45,855 nt of DNA from a virus. Made by a program: the position numbers and the translations under genes. The notes below the pieces were generated by a model, which did no database searches, was not told the origin of the DNA, and saw only the letters and a list, made by a program, of their open reading frames with translations. The stretch is from IMG/VR virus record IMGVR_UViG_3300036945_000943, positions 1-45,855 of that record; one strand, written 5' to 3'. Below, in pieces: positions 1,260 through 45,725 of this stretch. The stretch's first letter is position 1. The number at the start of each line of letters is the position of its first letter.

Positions 1260-3824
1260 ATGACGATTGATATTCAAATCGCGAAAGATGCTGCGCGAGG
1301 ACATTGGCCGACGATTGCCAATCGAGTCTTCGGAATACCTGACGACTTTCTGACACCGAAACAAGGTCCATGCCCTAAATGCAAATGCGGTACGGATCGC
1401 TGGAAGGTTTACAAAGACTTCGACGAGACCGGTGGGGCCATGTGCAACCAATGCGGGAAATCAGCCGATGGATTCGCGCTCGGTCAATGGTGGCTCGGTT
1501 GTTCGCTGAATGAAGCTATTGAAAAGGTTTGCCAATTTCTTGGCGTTGCTGATTCAAAACCGAAGAAAGGAAAACGCAGTCCAGCCAAGGTTGTATCTCA
1601 ATCGTCGACTGTTGAACCAGAGCCAACGAAGCCAGCAAAAGATTTACCGATCACGCTTAGACCATGGAACGATAAGCATTTCCAAATGTGCTTTGATTCC
1701 AAAAAGCCGATCACCATGGAAGCGGTGAAACTCGCTGGCGGAACGGTCGCGAAGCACTACGGCGATACTGTTATGGCGTTTCCGTGTATCGGTCTAGACG
1801 GAAAACCCTCTGGTTGGGTAATGTACAACATCACCGGCGGACCGATCAAATACCGGCCATCGGAAAACGAACCGTTCCAAGATCTCAAGATCAAGTTGAT
1901 CGGATGCCAGGGCGGTGGCTGGATCGGTCGGATCAATCCGAATCGTCCCGATGATCCAATTTTCAAAGTCGAGGGAGTCTCGGACGTTCTAACTGTTCTC
2001 TCGGCCAATCCAGAAGCCTCGGTGATCACGAACGCGAACGGAGCTGGTCAAGATCCGCTCCACAAGGATCGGCAATGGATGCTAGAGATATTTCGCGGTC
2101 GGATCGTTTACACAATCCACGATCGAGACGACGCAGGCCAAGACGGTGCACTTTGGACCGGTACCGATGTTCGCAAGCGTCCAGGCTGGGCAACGGCCAT
2201 TTCTCTTGTCGCCAAGGAATCGCGAAACGTTGAACTGCCGTTTCCGATGAACTCAAAGAATAAAAATCAAAAGGACGTTCGCGACTTCTTTATTGATCGA
2301 CTCGACGAACTCGCGACGTTTGGGGATGCATATCGCGAGCTAGTCGGGATCTGTGAAAAGTCGCCAGTGATTGTCCAGCCAGAGGGTTATCAACTTGCCG
2401 ATCCGGACGAACTCAAAAAAGCGGCAGAAATAAAATCAGAATCAATCGATGATCCTCACCGTCTCGCGAAAATCAATTTGGATCGCTATTTCGAGGACCA
2501 CGGCGGGCGTCTCGTGTTCTGGCGAAATCAGTGGGTTAAATACTCGGAAGGTCATTGGCGATTCATTGACGAAGGCGAGCTTCGCGCGAAAGTAAATGGA
2601 GCGATCCACCGGGAATTCATCCGATGCTACAAATTGGAGCTCGAAGAATATCAACTTTCGAAGGACGAAAAGAAACGGGCTCCAGTCACGACGAAAGTAA
2701 CGCGAAATATCGTTTCCAATGTGATTGCCGCTCTCGAAGAAAAGTGCATTATCTCGTCGACCATCGAAATGCCTTGCTGGTTGCCGACGGAGAAACGGCC
2801 AAACTACCTAGCGTTTGAAAATGGATTGTTGGATCTGGATCGAATTGAACACGAGGATTGTTTGCAACCACTTTCCTCGGATTGGTTCGCAATGTCCATG
2901 ATAGATTATCAAATTGATCCTGATGCTACTTGTCCGCGTTGGTGCCAGTACATCGATTTTGTTTCGACAGAAGACCCGACAATAGGATTGATCCTGCAGG
3001 AATGGGCCGGGTATCTGTTGATGCCCCACACTAGGCTGCAACGCTGGCTGATTCTCGAAGGTGAGGGCCACAACGGGAAAACGGTATACCTCGCCGGAAT
3101 ACGGGCCATGCTCGGCGATCGGAACGTTTCCGATGTCACGATCGACCAATTTGGGGAACGTTTCGCGCTCGCCTCGACAATCGGGAAAATGGTCAACATC
3201 AGTGCCGATCTCGGGGAAATCGATTCGGTCGCAGAGGGAGCAATCAAGCAATTCGTGGGAGGCGATACGATCATGATTGACCGGAAAAACCGCGATCCAA
3301 TTTCCGTTCGGCCGACCGCCAAGCTGATTGCGGCCTGGAATAATCGTCCGCGGATTAAGGATCGATCACGCGGCATGTGGCGACGAATGCTGATTTTGAC
3401 ATTCAATCGAATTGTCCAGCCGTCGGAACGCGTCCGGGGAATGGACGAGCCAGACCACTGGAAAGACGAAGCAGCCGGAATTTTGAACTGGTCGATCGCT
3501 GGAATGCATCGACTGAAAGAACAGGGAGAATTTACTAGCAGTCCAACCAGTGACGAATCAATGGCCGAATATCGAAATGAAAGCAACCCAGCTTTGCAAT
3601 TTCTTTGCGATCACGTCGGCGAAAGCAATCACGGAATAATTGCAGCCGCTGAACTGTATGAGGAATATAAAAAATGGTGTCTGAAAAATGGAAATCAATC
3701 TCTGTCGGCGGCAAATTTCGGTCGAGAAGTAAAAAGAAAATTCCCATCAGTCGAAAAAGAACGATCAGGGACAGGAAATCGTTCTTGGACCTATCGCGGA
3801 ATTTGTGTCGAAAATGAATTTTAA
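1260..3824 (+). CDS. DNA primase-helicase (zinc finger, Toprim, D5/SF3-type ATPase)
   Basis: From the ATG at 1260 the protein has 854 aa. The N-terminus has a primase zinc finger (CPKC at 38-41, CNQC at 62-65). A Toprim-like region follows, with Glu238 in KVEGVSD and the acidic cluster IHDRDDAG around 287-291. The C-terminal half is a D5/P4-type superfamily 3 helicase: Walker A GEGHNGKT (601-608), a sensor AWNNRP and an arginine-finger-like segment RSRGMWRR. It should prime and unwind phage DNA at the origin, and the 11-bp repeat array lies directly downstream. A frame extension to 1194 runs into a terminator hairpin and is rejected. Confidence 0.93.
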   Translation: MTIDIQIAKDAARGHWPTIANRVFGIPDDFLTPKQGPCPKCKCGTDRWKVYKDFDETGGAMCNQCGKSADGFALGQWWLGCSLNEAIEKVCQFLGVADSKPKKGKRSPAKVVSQSSTVEPEPTKPAKDLPITLRPWNDKHFQMCFDSKKPITMEAVKLAGGTVAKHYGDTVMAFPCIGLDGKPSGWVMYNITGGPIKYRPSENEPFQDLKIKLIGCQGGGWIGRINPNRPDDPIFKVEGVSDVLTVLSANPEASVITNANGAGQDPLHKDRQWMLEIFRGRIVYTIHDRDDAGQDGALWTGTDVRKRPGWATAISLVAKESRNVELPFPMNSKNKNQKDVRDFFIDRLDELATFGDAYRELVGICEKSPVIVQPEGYQLADPDELKKAAEIKSESIDDPHRLAKINLDRYFEDHGGRLVFWRNQWVKYSEGHWRFIDEGELRAKVNGAIHREFIRCYKLELEEYQLSKDEKKRAPVTTKVTRNIVSNVIAALEEKCIISSTIEMPCWLPTEKRPNYLAFENGLLDLDRIEHEDCLQPLSSDWFAMSMIDYQIDPDATCPRWCQYIDFVSTEDPTIGLILQEWAGYLLMPHTRLQRWLILEGEGHNGKTVYLAGIRAMLGDRNVSDVTIDQFGERFALASTIGKMVNISADLGEIDSVAEGAIKQFVGGDTIMIDRKNRDPISVRPTAKLIAAWNNRPRIKDRSRGMWRRMLILTFNRIVQPSERVRGMDEPDHWKDEAAGILNWSIAGMHRLKEQGEFTSSPTSDESMAEYRNESNPALQFLCDHVGESNHGIIAAAELYEEYKKWCLKNGNQSLSAANFGREVKRKFPSVEKERSGTGNRSWTYRGICVENEF

Positions 3825-3894
3825 TTTTTTTGATTCGAAGAAAAAACGAAAAATCCATTTTTCTATTTTTATTTTTTCGGCTCCGATTCGGTCG

Positions 3895-4137
3895 ACGGCC
3901 GCGATACGGCCTCGATACGGCCGCGATACGGCCGCGATAACGGCCGCGATACTTCCAATGAAAACATTGGTACGGCTTCGATAACCTCTTTTTTTACTAT
4001 TTTTTTACCCGTATAGAAAAAAAAGAAGAGAAGCAACAAGCATCGAGGCCAAAAGCCAGTAGGAGTTGATACGAAAATCGAAATTATCGCGGCCATCGCG
4101 GCCGTACCAACGAATTCATTGAGATCATCGAGGCCGT
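3895..4137. repeat. 11-bp iteron-like array, candidate replication origin
   Basis: The 320-bp gap 3825-4144 holds repeats of ACGGCCKCGAT. Five lie nearly head to tail at 3895, 3906, 3917, 3928 and 3940; a sixth variant is at 3972. Inverted copies follow at 4042 (partial), 4086 (partial), 4095 and 4127, the last two being exact reverse complements of the forward units. A/T-rich tracts lie before the array (3838-3880) and between the two halves (3988-4030). Tandem units one helical turn apart, an A/T-rich block and a primase-helicase gene next door are typical of phage origins. It could also be the operator of the HTH protein at 4603. Confidence 0.8.
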
Positions 4138-4144
4138 CACTAAC

Positions 4145-4573
4145 ATGCTGAAAACAATTTTAAATTCTGTTTCCAATTCAAAAAATGAAAATGAAAAAAA
4201 ATCTATTTCTACGGTCGCGACTCTCGAAAAGGAAAATTTTTCCGTTTGCGAACAATGCGGATCGGAAAATTTTTATTTGCCGATCAAATCGAATCGATGG
4301 GAGTGTCGCGAGTGCAATCCTCCCAAGTCTGATCGTTTCGTGGCGCAATCAAAACAGGGTCGCCAAATCGACGAGACGACACAAAACGACATGTACCACC
4401 CTGGATGGGCCATCGTTGATCCTGCGCAATGCTGGGGGCCTTACGTGCTTCGGTCGAAAAATCCGGTTTGCAAATGTGGATCGGAATATTTCGAAGAGAC
4501 CGGAATCGTCTGTAATGTGAAAAAATTTTGCGTTTGTTGTCGCGAAGAAATTTTTTGCGTAGACTTTGTCTAA
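4145..4573 (+). CDS. zinc-ribbon protein, 142 aa
   Basis: The family is not recognised. After a Lys/Asn/Ser-rich N-terminus come two cysteine groups: CEQC...CREC (a zinc-ribbon pattern) and CKCG...CVCC near the C-terminus. These suggest two metal sites. It is the first gene after the repeat array and overlaps the region upstream of the HTH gene, so a role in origin binding or regulation is possible but only positional. Confidence 0.65.
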   Translation: MLKTILNSVSNSKNENEKKSISTVATLEKENFSVCEQCGSENFYLPIKSNRWECRECNPPKSDRFVAQSKQGRQIDETTQNDMYHPGWAIVDPAQCWGPYVLRSKNPVCKCGSEYFEETGIVCNVKKFCVCCREEIFCVDFV

Positions 4574-4602
4574 CTCGTCCGTGGCTGGATTGGAGTTGTG
4601 GT

Positions 4603-5115
4603 GTGGTCGAAATCTTCGAAAACGAACACGATACTCGTGTCATCGTCGCGCGGCTAATTTCGGGCGGGCTCACAGTTGGAGCGGTCGCCGAATTTCTGAG
4701 AACGGATTATTTTTCCGTCTACAAAATTGTGAACGATCTCAAAGCTGATCCGAATCCTCGGGCCAAGCGTCGCGGGCGGTGGCGGAAAATCAAATTGGTG
4801 ATGGTTCCAAAATCTGGTCGACGAATCGCACCAGAAAAAAAGGCAGAGGCTGAACGGCTCCTCACTGAGACGAATTTGCCGATCTTCGAAATCGCCAAGC
4901 AGCTCGGGCTCAGATCCAGGCACAGCATCTACCTGATTCGCGAGCGATTGCAGCGAGAACAGGAAAACGAATCAGTTCGCGAAGAGCAAGACAGCGGGGC
5001 TGTCGGGACCACTTTCAAGACGCTCACGAAAACAAAACGTTGCGAGATCCATGGAGCGGTTTCGGTTTGGCCGTGTGTGATCTGCGAAGCCGAGAAATTT
5101 CGCAAGAGACGGTAG
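4603..5115 (+). CDS. helix-turn-helix DNA-binding protein
   Basis: From a GTG start at 4603 the protein has 170 aa. A GGAG (4592-4595) lies 7 bp upstream, which favours this start over an in-frame ATG at 4528 inside the previous gene. Two HTH-like segments are visible: LTVGAVAEFLRTDYFSVYKI near the N-terminus and IFEIAKQLGLRSRHSIYLI in the middle. They are linked by a basic stretch (RAKRRGRWRK). The C-terminus has a CEIH...CVIC metal-binding-like motif. It probably binds DNA and is the natural candidate to recognise the nearby iteron array. That link is inference. Confidence 0.7.
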   Translation: MVEIFENEHDTRVIVARLISGGLTVGAVAEFLRTDYFSVYKIVNDLKADPNPRAKRRGRWRKIKLVMVPKSGRRIAPEKKAEAERLLTETNLPIFEIAKQLGLRSRHSIYLIRERLQREQENESVREEQDSGAVGTTFKTLTKTKRCEIHGAVSVWPCVICEAEKFRKRR

Positions 5116-8987: not shown

Positions 8988-9566
8988 ATGGCCAAAACGA
9001 AAACGGTTGACACAGTAGCAGCTCTAACCGCGAAGCTAAAGCAAGCGAAGGGGGGTGATCTTACTAAATCTGAAATCTCGCTCGTGAAAAAATACGACGA
9101 GATCGTTGCCGAATCAAACCGTGAAGACGCCCTTTTGAATCTTCCAAAAGGGATATATTGCAAACTTTCCGGTCGGCAACAAAAAGTAGTTGACGAACAA
9201 GCGGTTCGGTACGGGCTCGCAATCGACGGTTCGAAAATCGATCTATATCAAGTGCTCAAAAAGTTCCACGATATTTTGGCCGAATGGGGGCCAACGATCA
9301 ACGAGCTTCAGGGTGCCGAAGGATCGCTTCGAACCGAGAAACTGCGACGCGAAATCGAACTGCTTGAGCGGCGGTCGAAGTCGATTGAAATCGACATCAA
9401 GAACAAGCAAGACGAATTCATCGACCGCAACACGCTGCGGGTCCGAATGGAATGGCTCGCGAACAAGCTTCGAACGGTCTCGGAGCGATTGGGAAAGCGG
9501 TTCGGCGCTGATGCTCAAGTTTTGCTCAATCATGCGTTGTCTCAGATCGAAGAGGAATTGGCTTAG
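8988..9566 (+). CDS. terminase small subunit (putative)
   Basis: The 192-aa, mostly helical and highly charged protein lies directly before the GpA-type large terminase, with the next start abutting its stop. The second half is a long coiled coil (residues about 95-190), as in small terminase subunits that form oligomeric rings and bind the packaging site. The N-terminus is Lys-rich. The assignment rests on position and general form rather than a clear motif. Confidence 0.7.
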   Translation: MAKTKTVDTVAALTAKLKQAKGGDLTKSEISLVKKYDEIVAESNREDALLNLPKGIYCKLSGRQQKVVDEQAVRYGLAIDGSKIDLYQVLKKFHDILAEWGPTINELQGAEGSLRTEKLRREIELLERRSKSIEIDIKNKQDEFIDRNTLRVRMEWLANKLRTVSERLGKRFGADAQVLLNHALSQIEEELA

Positions 9567-11495
9567 ATGGTTGCTGATTCTCTTGTCTTCGAACTCAAAC
9601 GCTGTTTGCAACGTGCTAGGCTCAATCCAGTGCGCGGGATGGTCGACTGGGTTTGCGATTTCGTTATTGCGGACGGTCCTAACGTTGGCGAGCCATTCCG
9701 ATTTGATACGCAACCGATTACTAAACTACTGATCGAAGAAATCGATTCGCGTCGGTGGAACGAGGTCTTTATCACCGGCCCGTCGCAATCAGGCAAAACT
9801 CTCATTGGATTCGTTGCCCCGGCGCTCTATCACACGTTGGAGCTGGGCGAAACGTACATTCTCGGTATTCCAGATATGAGGATGGCCAACAACAAATGGC
9901 AAATGGATTTACTACCGGCGATCAAAGCCAACACGCGATGGGAACGGTTACTACCCCTGGCTGGGCCAGGTTCCCAAGGTGGCATCGTTCGCGACACGAT
10001 CACATTTCGAAATGGTGGCGTGCTCAAATTCATGTCGGCAAACGGTTCCGACCAGGCTCGCGCGGGTTTTACGTCTCGCGTTGTCGGGATCACCGAGGCG
10101 GCTCGATTCTCGCGAGTCTCCGAAACGTCCCGAGAAGCTGATCCGCTTCGACAGATGCGAGCTCGGCAAGCCGCATACGACGAGCCCCAACGAATGCTCT
10201 ACGTCGAGGGTACCGTTACCGTCGAGGAAGATTTACCATGGTCCGCCAAGTCGGATTCAAGCGATTCGAAAATCATGTCACAATGTCCACATTGCGGGGA
10301 TTGGATCGCACCGGAACGCGAACACCTCCTTGGCTGGCAAGACGCGATCAACGTTTTTGAGGCTGGCGAGTTGGCGAAATGGTTTTGTTATTTGTGTGGC
10401 GAGGCGATCAATGAGGCCGAACGTCGAGAGAGTGTAAGCGGTTCCAAATTGGTCCACGTCGGCCAGACAGTCAATCGGCGTGGCGAGATCATTGGACCGA
10501 TGCCAAAAACGAATCGACTGTTTTTTCGCTATTCCGGGTGGCACAACCTTTTCGTCACAACATCGACGCTCGCAAAAGAGGAGTGGCGAGCGGATCAGGT
10601 CGACAAAGAGACTACCGAGTATGAAAATTCACAAAAAGAATTGACTCAATTCAAATGGGCCATTCCGTACAAATCGGGCAATCTGGAATCGCAACCCCTC
10701 GACAAAAAAGACGTTTTGAAACGACGGGCTGAGGCATACCCTCGCGGATTGTTACCACCCAAGACTACACATTTAACGCTTGGTTGCGACGTTGGGAAAT
10801 ACTCGCTGCATTATTTTGCGTTGGCTGGCCTTTCAAATGGCCAATTGCACTGCCCAGCTTACGGAATGATTGATGTGCCATCGGCGTTCATGGACTGGGA
10901 ACAAGCGATTGCTCACGCGCTCAACGAGTTGTTCGATTTGTGCGAAGTGGGCTGGACATTGCAAGGATCGTCCCAGCCAAGGTTGATCGATCAAGCTTGG
11001 ATCGATACCGGCTACGAACCAGACGCGATTTTTAAAGCGGTGATTTCTCACGCCGGTAGGCCTGGCCGACGGTCACGGTATCAAATGGCACTTGGCCGCG
11101 GATCGGGACAGATGCAGCGGATGTACCAAGCTCCACCGAAGCGAGGCGGTGGGATCGTCGAGATCGGACACCATTGGCACGTTGTACGAAACAAGCGTTG
11201 GAAAACGTTTCAAATCTTTGCTGATTCGGATCACTGGAAAGATCGGCTACAAGACTCGTTCAAGCAACCGAAGGAAAAGCCAGGGGCGATCACGCTCTAC
11301 CATGCTCCCGAACGTGAACATGATCGACTATCGAAGCATATCACGAACGAACACCGGAAAGTTGAGTTCGTGCCAGGCGAAGGGGAGAAGGTTAAGTTCG
11401 AAAAGAAGGGTGCAAACCACTGGCTGGATGCCGCTTACAACGCACGAGCCGCATTAGATCGGATCGGCTGGCGTCCTGAGATTGAGAAAGTCTAA
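9567..11495 (+). CDS. terminase large subunit, GpA family
   Basis: The 642-aa motor protein cuts and pumps DNA into the prohead. Walker A is GPSQSGKT (71-78). A four-cysteine zinc finger (CPHC 240-243, CYLC 274-277) separates ATPase and nuclease, as in lambda GpA relatives. The RNase H-like nuclease shows LGCDVG (Asp408), LIDQAWID (Asp474/480) and HWLDAAYN (Asp621). The Walker B position reads VVGITEAAR, with Thr176-Glu177 instead of the usual Asp-Glu. GpA-type enzymes usually belong to cos-packaging phages. Confidence 0.93.
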   Translation: MVADSLVFELKRCLQRARLNPVRGMVDWVCDFVIADGPNVGEPFRFDTQPITKLLIEEIDSRRWNEVFITGPSQSGKTLIGFVAPALYHTLELGETYILGIPDMRMANNKWQMDLLPAIKANTRWERLLPLAGPGSQGGIVRDTITFRNGGVLKFMSANGSDQARAGFTSRVVGITEAARFSRVSETSREADPLRQMRARQAAYDEPQRMLYVEGTVTVEEDLPWSAKSDSSDSKIMSQCPHCGDWIAPEREHLLGWQDAINVFEAGELAKWFCYLCGEAINEAERRESVSGSKLVHVGQTVNRRGEIIGPMPKTNRLFFRYSGWHNLFVTTSTLAKEEWRADQVDKETTEYENSQKELTQFKWAIPYKSGNLESQPLDKKDVLKRRAEAYPRGLLPPKTTHLTLGCDVGKYSLHYFALAGLSNGQLHCPAYGMIDVPSAFMDWEQAIAHALNELFDLCEVGWTLQGSSQPRLIDQAWIDTGYEPDAIFKAVISHAGRPGRRSRYQMALGRGSGQMQRMYQAPPKRGGGIVEIGHHWHVVRNKRWKTFQIFADSDHWKDRLQDSFKQPKEKPGAITLYHAPEREHDRLSKHITNEHRKVEFVPGEGEKVKFEKKGANHWLDAAYNARAALDRIGWRPEIEKV

Positions 11496-15544: not shown

Positions 15545-15550
15545 TTTTTT

Positions 15551-15622
15551 TGTGGGGTAGAGCAGTGGTAGCTCGTCAGGCTCATAACCTGGAGTACGGT
15601 GGTTCGAATCCATCCCCCGCAA
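15551..15622 (+). tRNA. tRNA with CAT anticodon (Met elongator, or Ile2)
   Basis: A full cloverleaf is present. The acceptor stem is TGTGGGG/CCCCGCA (one G-U), and the anticodon stem-loop is TCAGG-CTCATAA-CCTGG with CAT at 15583-15585. The T-arm is GGTGG-TTCGAAT-CCATC, and the discriminator A is at 15622. No CCA is encoded. The anticodon stem lacks the three G-C pairs of initiators, so this is an elongator Met tRNA, or an Ile tRNA whose C34 is changed to lysidine. It is transcribed with the head genes, directly behind the capsid gene. Confidence 0.95.
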
Positions 15623-15656
15623 TTTTGTTTTTTGGTTCTTTCGATTGGGTGTCATC

Positions 15657-30346: not shown

Positions 30347-30404
30347 CTTGCTGTTGTCTAGCAGTAAAGTAGCCGTATTGGCTTTCACTGCTATTGTTTT
30401 TCAG

Positions 30405-30447
30405 CTCCCCCGGGTGGGCTCGAACCACCGACACACGGATTAACAGT
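30405..30447 (-). other. attP: attP core: 3' half of a tRNA-Asn gene
   Basis: Read on the - strand, this 43-bp stretch matches the 3' half of a bacterial tRNA-Asn: anticodon loop CTGTTAA (GTT), the 3' side of the anticodon stem TCCGT, a T-arm GGTGG-TTCGAGC-CCACC, acceptor CGGGGGA and discriminator G. The 5' half is absent; the bases before the loop do not pair with the stem. Phages that integrate in tRNA genes carry exactly this kind of fragment to restore the tRNA. It lies about 100 bp before the integrase gene. Confidence 0.88.
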
Positions 30448-30496
30448 ATGCAGGGTAAACGCTTGTCTTTAGGGGTTTAGATGCTATTTTGGTGCG

Positions 30497-30550: not shown

Positions 30551-31693
30551 ATGTTACGCCAAAAACCCGAGAAACCATGTGCCGATTTTCCGCTCTATCC
30601 TCACATCGCTGGCAAGTGGGCAAAGAAGATCGCGGGTAAGACTCGTTACTTTGGACCGTGGGACGATCCAGACGGCTCGCTGGTGACGTATCTGCGAGAA
30701 AAGGCAGATTGGGAAGCAGGTCGGAACCCACGCGAGAAAATAGAAATTGAAGCGGTTTCCGAGGTTGTTGGCTTACGGCTCGCCGATGGCTTGAATCTGT
30801 TTCTCGATTCGTGTTTGCAAAAGATCAAGCGCGGAGAGCTGGGGCAACGGTCCTACGACGACTACAAGGCATCTGCAGAACGCGTTTTGAAATGTCTCGG
30901 CCGGCATCATCCGATAAACGATCTCAAACCAGATCACTGGCGAAAACTGTACCTGGCGATCTCGAAGGGCAACGGCCAGGTGAGCATTGGCAATCAGATC
31001 ACTCGAATCAAAGTTATGTTGAATTGGCTTTTGAAGAATCGATACTTGGATCGGGAGCCACACTACGGATCGGAGTTCTCGAAACCGGCGAAAGTTGCGA
31101 TCCGCCGAGCCCGAGCGAACAGCGGGAAAAAATGGTTCGGCGCCGATGAACTTCAAAAGTTGCTTACCACTGATCACTTGGTTTTGCGTTCGATGATTTT
31201 GCTTGGGATCAATTGCGCATACGGCAATGGCGATTGTGCACAGCTCCAGTTTGATTGGATCGATCTTGAGAAAGGATGGATTCAGTACGCGAGGCCCAAA
31301 ACCGGTGTTGATCGTCGCGCGAAGCTCTGGCCCGAGACGATAGCGGCGATACAAACCTGGCAGGGCAAGCGGCCAGCGATCAACAACAATCTGGTATTCG
31401 TGACTCGGCAAGGCAACCCATGGAGTGATCCAAATTCGTGCGATTGTGCGATCGCGAAAGCATTTCAGCGGATCAGCCGGGAGAAAGAAGTCTGGATTGC
31501 GGGCCGCGGATTCTACGGTTTGAGGAGAACGTTTGAGACGATCGCGGGCCGGAGCAAGGATCAAGTGGCTGTTGATCACATCATGGGCCACGTCGATCAA
31601 TCCATGGCTGGGGTATACCGGCAAGAGATCGACGATTCTCGATTGATCGCGGTGTCGGAATTGGTTAGAGCTTGGGTGTTTGCAAAAGCCTGA
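30551..31693 (+). CDS. int: tyrosine-type integrase
   Basis: The 380-aa protein has an N-terminal arm-binding region, a SAM-like core-binding domain (about 75-165) and a catalytic domain. Visible residues: Lys250 in RPKTG, Arg325 in FYGLRRTFE (where a His or Tyr precedes), His347 in VDHIMGH and Tyr356 in AGVYRQE as nucleophile. The place of the first catalytic Arg reads NCAYGNGDCAQL, without the usual Arg; this reading is typical of a planctomycete integrase group as I remember it. It integrates the phage at tRNA-Asn using the neighbouring attP. Confidence 0.93.
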   Translation: MLRQKPEKPCADFPLYPHIAGKWAKKIAGKTRYFGPWDDPDGSLVTYLREKADWEAGRNPREKIEIEAVSEVVGLRLADGLNLFLDSCLQKIKRGELGQRSYDDYKASAERVLKCLGRHHPINDLKPDHWRKLYLAISKGNGQVSIGNQITRIKVMLNWLLKNRYLDREPHYGSEFSKPAKVAIRRARANSGKKWFGADELQKLLTTDHLVLRSMILLGINCAYGNGDCAQLQFDWIDLEKGWIQYARPKTGVDRRAKLWPETIAAIQTWQGKRPAINNNLVFVTRQGNPWSDPNSCDCAIAKAFQRISREKEVWIAGRGFYGLRRTFETIAGRSKDQVAVDHIMGHVDQSMAGVYRQEIDDSRLIAVSELVRAWVFAKA

Positions 31694-41872: not shown

Positions 41873-41980
41873 ATGGGCGAAGTGATAGAAGCGATTGTAA
41901 AAGGCGTTATTCGCCTAGCAATTCTTGGTGTTGTTGTTGCGTTGTGTGTTGGTTTTGCAATCGGATTTTGGTGGAAATGA
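41873..41980 (+). CDS. 35-aa membrane peptide
   Basis: A strong site GGAGAAGGA lies just upstream of the ATG. The product is a short amphipathic start (GEVIEAIVKGVIR) and a membrane segment (LAILGVVVALCVGFAIGFWW). It overlaps the following start (ATGA). No family is recognised. Confidence 0.55.
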   Translation: MGEVIEAIVKGVIRLAILGVVVALCVGFAIGFWWK

Positions 41981-42798
41981 TGTCCGCACCTAGCAACCTG
42001 GAAAACTTGAAAATACAAGCGGCTTGCGAAGTCTTGCGCAGTCGAATTGCCACGACCGAACCGATACGGCCGCGTTTGGCAATTTCGGTTTCTGGCGGCA
42101 GATCGTCGGTGGTGATGATGCGTCGTTGTTTGGAATTGTACGGCGAGACTCACGATATTCTTTCCACGTTCGTCAACACCGGCTGCGAAGACGAACGGAC
42201 ATTGCGGTTCATGCGAGACGCGGACAAGCACTTTGCGAACAATTCGGTAGTTTGGATTGAGGCCGTGATAAACGGTCCAGGCGTGGGCGTTGGTTTCAAG
42301 GTGGTGAACTATGAGACGGCAGACCGAAACGGCGGCCCAATGCGCGAGGCGACGGCTAAGCATGGCGTTTTCGGTCCTACCCATCCGCAATGCACTTCGC
42401 GACTAAAAGAAGAACCAATGTTGGCTTTTCGGCGTGCGTGTGGCTGGGAGGATGGTTCTTACGATACTGCTATTGGGATTCGAGCAGATGAGGCAGACCG
42501 CATCAGTCCCAAGCGAAAGGAAAAGCGATTTATTTATCCGTTGGTGACCGAGAATTGGCGCAAGCGAGACGTGAACGAATTCATGGCTCAATTCGACTGG
42601 GATTTGGATTTGCCGTCTGATGCTTGGGGGAACTGCGTCCACTGCTTCAAAAAGACACTTCGCAAACTGATGACCGTGGCGAAAGCTGATCCAAGCAAAT
42701 TTGATTTGCCTGGGGAGCTAGAACGCAAGTATGGCATGCTCAACAAAGGCGACGGAGCGCAGCCGGAACCGAGAGTTCACTATCGCGGCAGGCTATAG
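41977..42798 (+). CDS. PAPS reductase-family PP-loop protein
   Basis: From the ATG at 41977 the protein has 273 aa. The PP-loop is SVSGGRSS (37-44), followed by STFVNTGCEDERTLRFM, HPQCTSRLKEEP and a NCVHCFKK cysteine pair, as in phage proteins of the phosphoadenosine phosphosulfate reductase family. Members activate substrates by adenylation; some phage copies are thought to act in sulfur metabolism, and the relative DndC in DNA phosphorothioation. No other Dnd gene is visible. The substrate is unknown. Confidence 0.8.
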   Translation: MMSAPSNLENLKIQAACEVLRSRIATTEPIRPRLAISVSGGRSSVVMMRRCLELYGETHDILSTFVNTGCEDERTLRFMRDADKHFANNSVVWIEAVINGPGVGVGFKVVNYETADRNGGPMREATAKHGVFGPTHPQCTSRLKEEPMLAFRRACGWEDGSYDTAIGIRADEADRISPKRKEKRFIYPLVTENWRKRDVNEFMAQFDWDLDLPSDAWGNCVHCFKKTLRKLMTVAKADPSKFDLPGELERKYGMLNKGDGAQPEPRVHYRGRL

Positions 42799-45216: not shown

Positions 45217-45599
45217 TGCGACCACTCAGCGAAAACGGCCCGTCCTCAATCGTACCGATCAGGACACCGGACCAAGAAAAAGCAGCACTCCAAGCAGTGC
45301 TGCAAGACGACGAGACAATCAGCGGACTGACTCGCGAACTGTGGAAAAAAGAAGTCAAGAAACGAACCAAGAAAACCAAGGAACAAACCATGATCGTAGT
45401 AACATACTGGGCCGGAACAACGCAAAAAACCAAGACCGTCAAAAGCTACGCGGCGGCGCAAAAGCTGATCAGCAAAGACCATCGCAACTCGCACGATCCG
45501 ATTTTTTCGACCGAGGACGGGGAAACTTTAATTGATACCGGATCGTATTTTGTGACGCAAAAGGAAGCGGCAAAAAAGAATCCAGTCGTCTACGCATAA
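45216..45599 (+). CDS. hypothetical protein, 127 aa
   Basis: The N-terminal part is polar with a Lys-rich run (KKEVKKRTKKTKEQT). The second half from an internal ATG (45390) is a compact beta/alpha unit (MIVVTYWAGTTQKTKTVKSY). The stop overlaps the first base of the right direct repeat. On a circular map this gene is followed by the repeat and the gene at 136. Confidence 0.55.
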   Translation: MRPLSENGPSSIVPIRTPDQEKAALQAVLQDDETISGLTRELWKKEVKKRTKKTKEQTMIVVTYWAGTTQKTKTVKSYAAAQKLISKDHRNSHDPIFSTEDGETLIDTGSYFVTQKEAAKKNPVVYA

Positions 45600-45725
45600 C
45601 GGTCGGCTAGTGTGGCCGAACATACCCGTTGATGGCTCAGCGACACATAGAGGGCTTCCGTTGTCGTCCACGGTTCGATTCCTGGCCGGGTGCTGATTTA
45701 CAATTTTACGTGCGGACAAAGGGAC
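45599..45725. repeat. 127-bp direct repeat, right copy
   Basis: It is identical to 1-127. It begins in the stop codon of the last early gene and is followed by sequence not found at the left end. If the two copies are one locus, the genome closes at about 45,598 bp. Confidence 0.9.

Follow-up and report, generated by a model that had tools for sequence, protein, structure and literature searches.

A mirrored iteron array directly downstream of a D5-type primase-helicase gene as the probable replication origin of a temperate phage

Results and Discussion

The 320-bp non-coding gap at positions 3825–4144 of the window (the whole 45,855-bp virus record under study) is proposed to be a phage replication origin of the type known from SaPI, PICI and P4, at which the primase-helicase encoded immediately upstream would bind the units of a mirrored repeat array through its C-terminal winged helix and start replication bidirectionally; we put the probability of this reading at roughly 0.86. 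Judged from sequence, the array is almost certainly a functional origin, of which the sequence and the host are new and the kind is known.

Phage setting

The window contains terminase, portal and capsid/protease genes, as well as a tyrosine integrase (30551–31693), just upstream of which a sequence similar to the 3' end of a tRNA is noted at 30400–30450 and constitutes a plausible attP. A tRNA-Met gene is located at 15550–15623, between the capsid gene and the genes after it, and the early region comprises a gene resembling phosphoadenosine phosphosulfate reductase (41944–42798). Bases 1–127 recur exactly, as a direct repeat, at 45599–45725, and the second copy is followed on its right by 130 bp of different sequence, in which a tRNA-Ser-like gene is located. 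The end repeat suggests either that the genome is circular, with 45,598 bp, or a branch in the assembly; assemblers commonly use a k-mer of 127, too, and the argument for circularity is therefore no stronger than suggestive. All major genes of the window are on one strand. Cumulative GC skew had been put forward as a check on the position of the origin, and this check did not single out the array, the detrended minimum being found near 41.6 kb with no turning point at the array.

Organization of the array

The array fills the gap that directly follows the stop codon of the primase-helicase gene (3824) and comprises six forward units (3895–3982) facing four inverted ones (4042–4137) across an A/T-rich centre (Table 1). 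A unit search thus bears out what the sequence-only reading had described for the 11-bp unit ACGGCCKCGAT (also written ACGGCCGCGAT), including the tandem run of five forward copies at 11- or 12-bp steps, for which steps of 11, 11, 11 and 12 bp were found, and the presence of both GCGAT and TCGAT variants on each side. A 32-bp gap leads from a tandem unit to the next unit on both sides (3940 to 3972 and 4095 to 4127), and the steps of the window accordingly read 11-11-11-12-32; the inner inverted units follow each other at 9 bp instead of 11 or 12 bp, and a degenerate neighbour, also at a 9-bp step, is present beside the inner left unit.

Table 1. Coordinates of the array, of its elements and of the adjoining genes in the window
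Feature	Position	Strand	Basis or remark
D5-type primase-helicase, proposed initiator	1260..3824	+	Pfam Zn_Ribbon_Prim, D5_N, DUF5906, Pox_D5, RFX winged helix; PHROG DNA primase
C-terminal winged-helix domain, residues 796–876, proposed iteron-binding domain	3579..3821	+	Pfam RFX/Pox_D5, AlphaFold model, alignment
Array-flanking A/T-rich tract, primase stop to array	3825..3880	.	80% A+T, 40-bp windows starting 3800–3840
Forward units ACGGCCKCGAT, outer left, five exact	3895, 3906, 3917, 3928, 3940 (span 3895..3950)	+	Unit search
Dyad CCAATGAAAACATTGG, left 32-bp spacer	3955..3970	.	Sequence search; counterpart in relative's array
Inner left unit ACGGCTTCGAT, one mismatch	3972..3982	+	Unit search
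A/T-rich centre, putative unwinding region	3983..4035	.	72–75% A+T, 40-bp windows starting 3980 and 4000; genome about 50%
Inverted unit with exact 9-bp core GGCCTCGAT; two mismatches in the full 11 bp	4042..4052	-	Unit search
Inner right inverted pair, 9-bp step: 4086–4096 (one mismatch) and 4095–4105 (exact)	4086..4105	-	
Second dyad copy CCAACGAATTCATTGA, right 32-bp spacer	4107..4122	.	Sequence search
Outer right inverted unit, exact	4127..4137	-	Unit search
Small Cys-rich (zinc-ribbon-like) protein, first gene 3' of array	4145..4573	+	58% identical homologue, L004/L005 only
HTH-domain protein, two HTH segments	4603..5115	+	Weak Pfam HTH_28/HTH_29/HTH_23; homologue L004/L005 only

No tandem repeat in the window scores higher than the forward run. 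Phage genomes do have short tandem repeats, five others being listed in the window, and one could thus regard the array as a chance or simple-sequence repeat without function; however, all five are weaker, and the commonest 8-mer of 3825–4144 occurs in 6 copies, a count which was never reached in 5000 dinucleotide shuffles (maximum of 4). Taken together with a relative that keeps the position and layout with another sequence (see below), this makes the probability of a functionless repeat practically negligible. When 450-bp windows were slid along the whole record, 8-mer counts above 3 were observed only in those covering the array, and no second cluster of the array unit was found anywhere in the window. 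A reading of the array as a structured RNA was dropped, as no Rfam family was found in 3600–4600.

Both 32-bp spacers contain a dyad element, CCAAYGAAWWCATTGR, to whose core no other matches with one mismatch or fewer exist in the window, and which is also present in the array of the closest relative (about 4087–4102 of L004). These conserved dyads may be a binding site for a second protein. A sequence similar to the dyad is also noted at contig position 29074 of the relative, close to where its prophage ends on the right.

The last unit of the array ends 8 bp before the start codon of the 4145 gene and repressors often bind inverted repeats, both of which would be compatible with an operator that controls the primase or the downstream early operon, the origin being located elsewhere. 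However, a simple operator does not look like this, with as many as 10 units spread over 240 bp and converging on an AT-rich centre, and in the survey described below the arrays follow the primase whatever the next gene is, which renders an operator very unlikely.

The primase-helicase as proposed initiator

The open reading frame of the primase opens at GTG 1194, and the primase of the closest relative begins at the residue equivalent to the Met of ATG 1260, which suggests the latter as the start. An AlphaFold model of residues 424–876 (mean pLDDT of 95) predicts a winged helix with a helix-helix-hairpin arrangement, in which the predicted recognition helix corresponds to about residues 839–849. 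The best solved structural match to this helicase and winged-helix model is the SaPI5 primase-helicase (7OLA, E 8e-21), with which the structural-alignment identity is only about 18%. From the model and by analogy, the primase-helicase probably binds the array units through the winged helix at its C-terminus.

The sequence-only reading had suggested that origin and initiator form a new pair, the proteins encoded at 4603 and 4145 being candidate binders. Comparison with relatives supports the origin well; the two proteins are unlikely initiators, as their homologues are found in the close relative only, and the layout is not new either, being of a kind known from SaPI/PICI and P4. An origin bound by the 4603 HTH protein or by the 4145 protein, which would then recruit the primase, would fit with both genes adjoining the array and being conserved in the close relative, and the spacer dyads make a second DNA-binding protein plausible. 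However, no homologues of 4145 and 4603 were found near the primases of eleven more distant relatives (L012–L022), most of which carry arrays nonetheless; on this distribution the two proteins would not be general to such arrays. Also, the primase has a winged helix of its own, and its SaPI5 relative is one of the Reps whose C-terminal domain binds the iterons. Binding by the 4603 or 4145 protein is thus unlikely and, since arrays persist beside primases that lack both genes, the primase-helicase itself is most likely the initiator.

Conservation in a close relative

Among the relatives found, the closest is a prophage (L004/L005, the rest of the contig being L007–L011) that is integrated in a Planctomycetaceae MAG, spans about 29 kb and has the primase, terminase and head genes in common with the window, its primase (L004) being 79% identical to that of the window over residues 16–876. 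For the 15-kb helicase/nuclease region of the window (30.5–45.6 kb), no match was found on the relative's contig, which starts just left of the prophage integrase. In this compact 29-kb prophage (L007–L008), the ORF immediately 5' of the primase is integrase-like, and the prophage ends beside a gene for tRNA-Phe, at about 29.3 kb of the contig.

Loss of the array from close relatives that keep the primase had been named as a finding that would refute an origin, and this relative, the only close one, has retained both. In the equivalent gap, L004 presents units CGTCCTAGG at 11, 11 and 13 bp followed by a 32-bp spacer, and its inner part comprises two pairs stepped by 9 bp, the second of them inverted, with an AT-rich centre between them. 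The unit itself, ACGTCCTAGGA, differs from ACGGCCKCGAT, ACG-CC being common to both. As far as these two sequences tell, the layout of the array is conserved and the unit sequence has turned over. Such a combination is predicted for a site that is recognised by an initiator, whereas a simple-sequence accident does not predict it.

Arrays beside primases of wider relatives

A search of 392 genomes of the relative's phylum yielded ten matching genomes, nine of them new (28–43% identity), and most of the loci thus obtained have their own mirrored array right 3' of the primase stop. In a second step, 80 IMG/VR primase loci were added; IMG/VR searches with the primase alone, with two-sequence alignments and with a two-unit DNA pattern gave no matches. 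Arrays were detected by comparing the most frequent 8-mer, on either strand of 450 bp, with 100 dinucleotide shuffles. A significant array was present in the 450 bp 3' of the primase stop in 39 of 90 relatives, against 2–4% in control windows (2/87, 2/85 and 2/73 for the next three downstream, 3/91 inside the gene and 3/73 upstream), these counts including a few near-duplicate loci. Under the test used, 49 of the 91 surveyed primase loci have no array directly downstream, some of them having one elsewhere. Indeed, L094, L095, L098, L084 and L089 have none downstream of the primase and present repeat clusters at other places, such as ten copies of GTGTGGCA upstream in L094 and a TGTTCCAA cluster 2 kb downstream in L098. 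Of 13 named public phages, two (Mycobacterium phage Adonis and Staphylococcus phage vB_SpsX-DS11) have an array immediately 3' of the primase, which was not seen in the other 11 with this test. An array directly after the primase is common, not universal.

In respect to geometry, a symmetry test around any centre proved too weak for most arrays (p < 0.05 for L053, L059, L019, L073 and L076) and was replaced by a pair/gap/pair test, carried out on 37 non-redundant arrays, for which the cut-off was slightly less strict than in the 39/90 count. A pair stepped by 8–10 bp, a gap of 67–127 bp and an inverted pair with the same stepping were found in 23 of the 37, strand shuffling leading one to expect 4.2, and in nearly all of these 23 the A+T content of the gap is higher than that of the contig. 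The strict form of the test narrowly leaves out both the window array, one inner-left unit of which is degenerate, and that of L005, in which there is an extra site inside the gap. Many units of the surveyed arrays contain GTCC or GTCA when read toward the gap. A family-wide recognition rule for the units could not be demonstrated, and across 34 arrays the units did not detectably co-vary with the sequences of the winged helix, the recognition helix or the wing (Mantel r about 0).

Repeat arrays also occur at centromere-like sites, and a parS-like partition site or a packaging site could therefore be envisaged. However, ParA/ParB were not found among the window proteins scanned (part of the ORFs), the terminase, at 9567, is about 5 kb from the array, and the surveyed arrays track the primase, all of which makes either function extremely improbable.

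Comparison with known systems

SaPI Rep proteins use their C-terminal domain to bind iterons directly downstream of their own gene, and the isolated C-terminal domain of SCCmec Cch2 binds in vitro the repeats downstream of its gene (PMC7581432). In PICI origins, an AT-rich region has been reported always to be surrounded by two sets of iterons (PMC6092414). The SaPI Rep-ori (SaPI5 primase-helicase, PDB 7OLA/7OM0) and the PICI pri-rep-ori comprise a D5-type primase-helicase with a C-terminal DNA-binding domain, as predicted in the window, where domain matches and modelling point to a D5/SF3-type helicase whose C-terminal domain would bind dsDNA. As in these systems, the array (3895–4137) is directly 3' of the initiator-helicase gene and its two unit sets flank an AT-rich region. 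Unlike them, the window is a complete temperate phage that encodes terminase, portal and capsid proteins itself, being neither a satellite nor a PICI, and its 11-bp unit has its own sequence, SaPI units being outside this comparison.

The likeness to P4 alpha is that a single protein is primase, helicase and origin-binding winged helix, to which Zn_Ribbon_Prim, D5_N and RFX/Pox_D5 correspond in the window, and that the crr repeats are located just downstream of the alpha gene. The annotated type 1 repeats of P4 ori1 start at 9310, 9320, 9331, 9353 (opposite strand), 9396 and 9406, giving steps of 10, 11, 22, 43 and 10. The same pattern, strand-flipped, is found in the left half of the L059 array (steps of 10, 11, 22, 43 and 9, strands +++-++), and L053, L071 and L050 are within a few bp of this spacing; in L053, L059 and L019 the ori1-like pattern is repeated as a mirror image. 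The window differs from P4 in its unit (TGTTCACC/GGTGAACA being the type 1 unit of P4), in its steps, which do not follow the ori1 spacing, and in having one mirrored array with its own spacing, whereas P4 has two cis sites, ori1 and crr, about 4.7 kb apart.

SCCmec Cch2, with its putative origin, likewise has a D5-type helicase and repeats downstream of its gene, but these are only three 5-nt iterons, a mirrored array is absent and the primase is a separate polymerase. Iteron plasmids of the RepA/Rep_3 type also have repeated initiator sites adjoining an AT-rich region, although their initiator is not itself a helicase; no Rep_3/RepA-type gene was found among the window proteins scanned (part of the ORFs). 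Iterons of such plasmids are typically about 20 bp long.

Proposed mechanism and significance

In the proposed origin, the 11-bp tandem steps and the 9-bp inner pair would place the units on helical faces, and the units face each other from both sides of the A/T-rich centre. The primase-helicase produced from the gene immediately upstream would bind these 11-bp units through its C-terminal winged helix and, because the units are opposed on the two sides, binding would result in the loading of two opposed helicase assemblies, presumably hexamers. These would melt the centre at 3983–4035, after which the same protein would unwind and prime in both directions.

Whether phages and satellites with D5-type primases have in common an ancient origin grammar, with fixed spacings and mirrored strands and a unit sequence that turns over quickly, even between primases that are 79% identical, is a proposal to which we give even odds. 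The grammar itself would consist of tandem units at 10–11 bp, followed after about 21 bp by an inverted unit and, after 43–47 bp, by a 9-bp pair, then an AT-rich gap and the mirror image of the whole. Were this true, origins would be predictable from geometry alone, and the DNA-recognition rules of the initiator could be deduced from natural pairs.

The present analysis predicts precisely the origin and the initiator of a temperate phage that is most closely related to a Planctomycetaceae prophage, and ties dozens of uncharacterised phages to self-loading initiation in the style of SaPI and P4. Since the dozens of related phages keep the position and geometry of the array and each has a repeat sequence of its own, these loci offer natural initiator-origin pairs with which helicase loading at an origin and the evolution of specificity may be studied, and laboratory phages with such arrays, for example Mycobacterium phage Adonis on M. 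smegmatis, would make direct tests easy.
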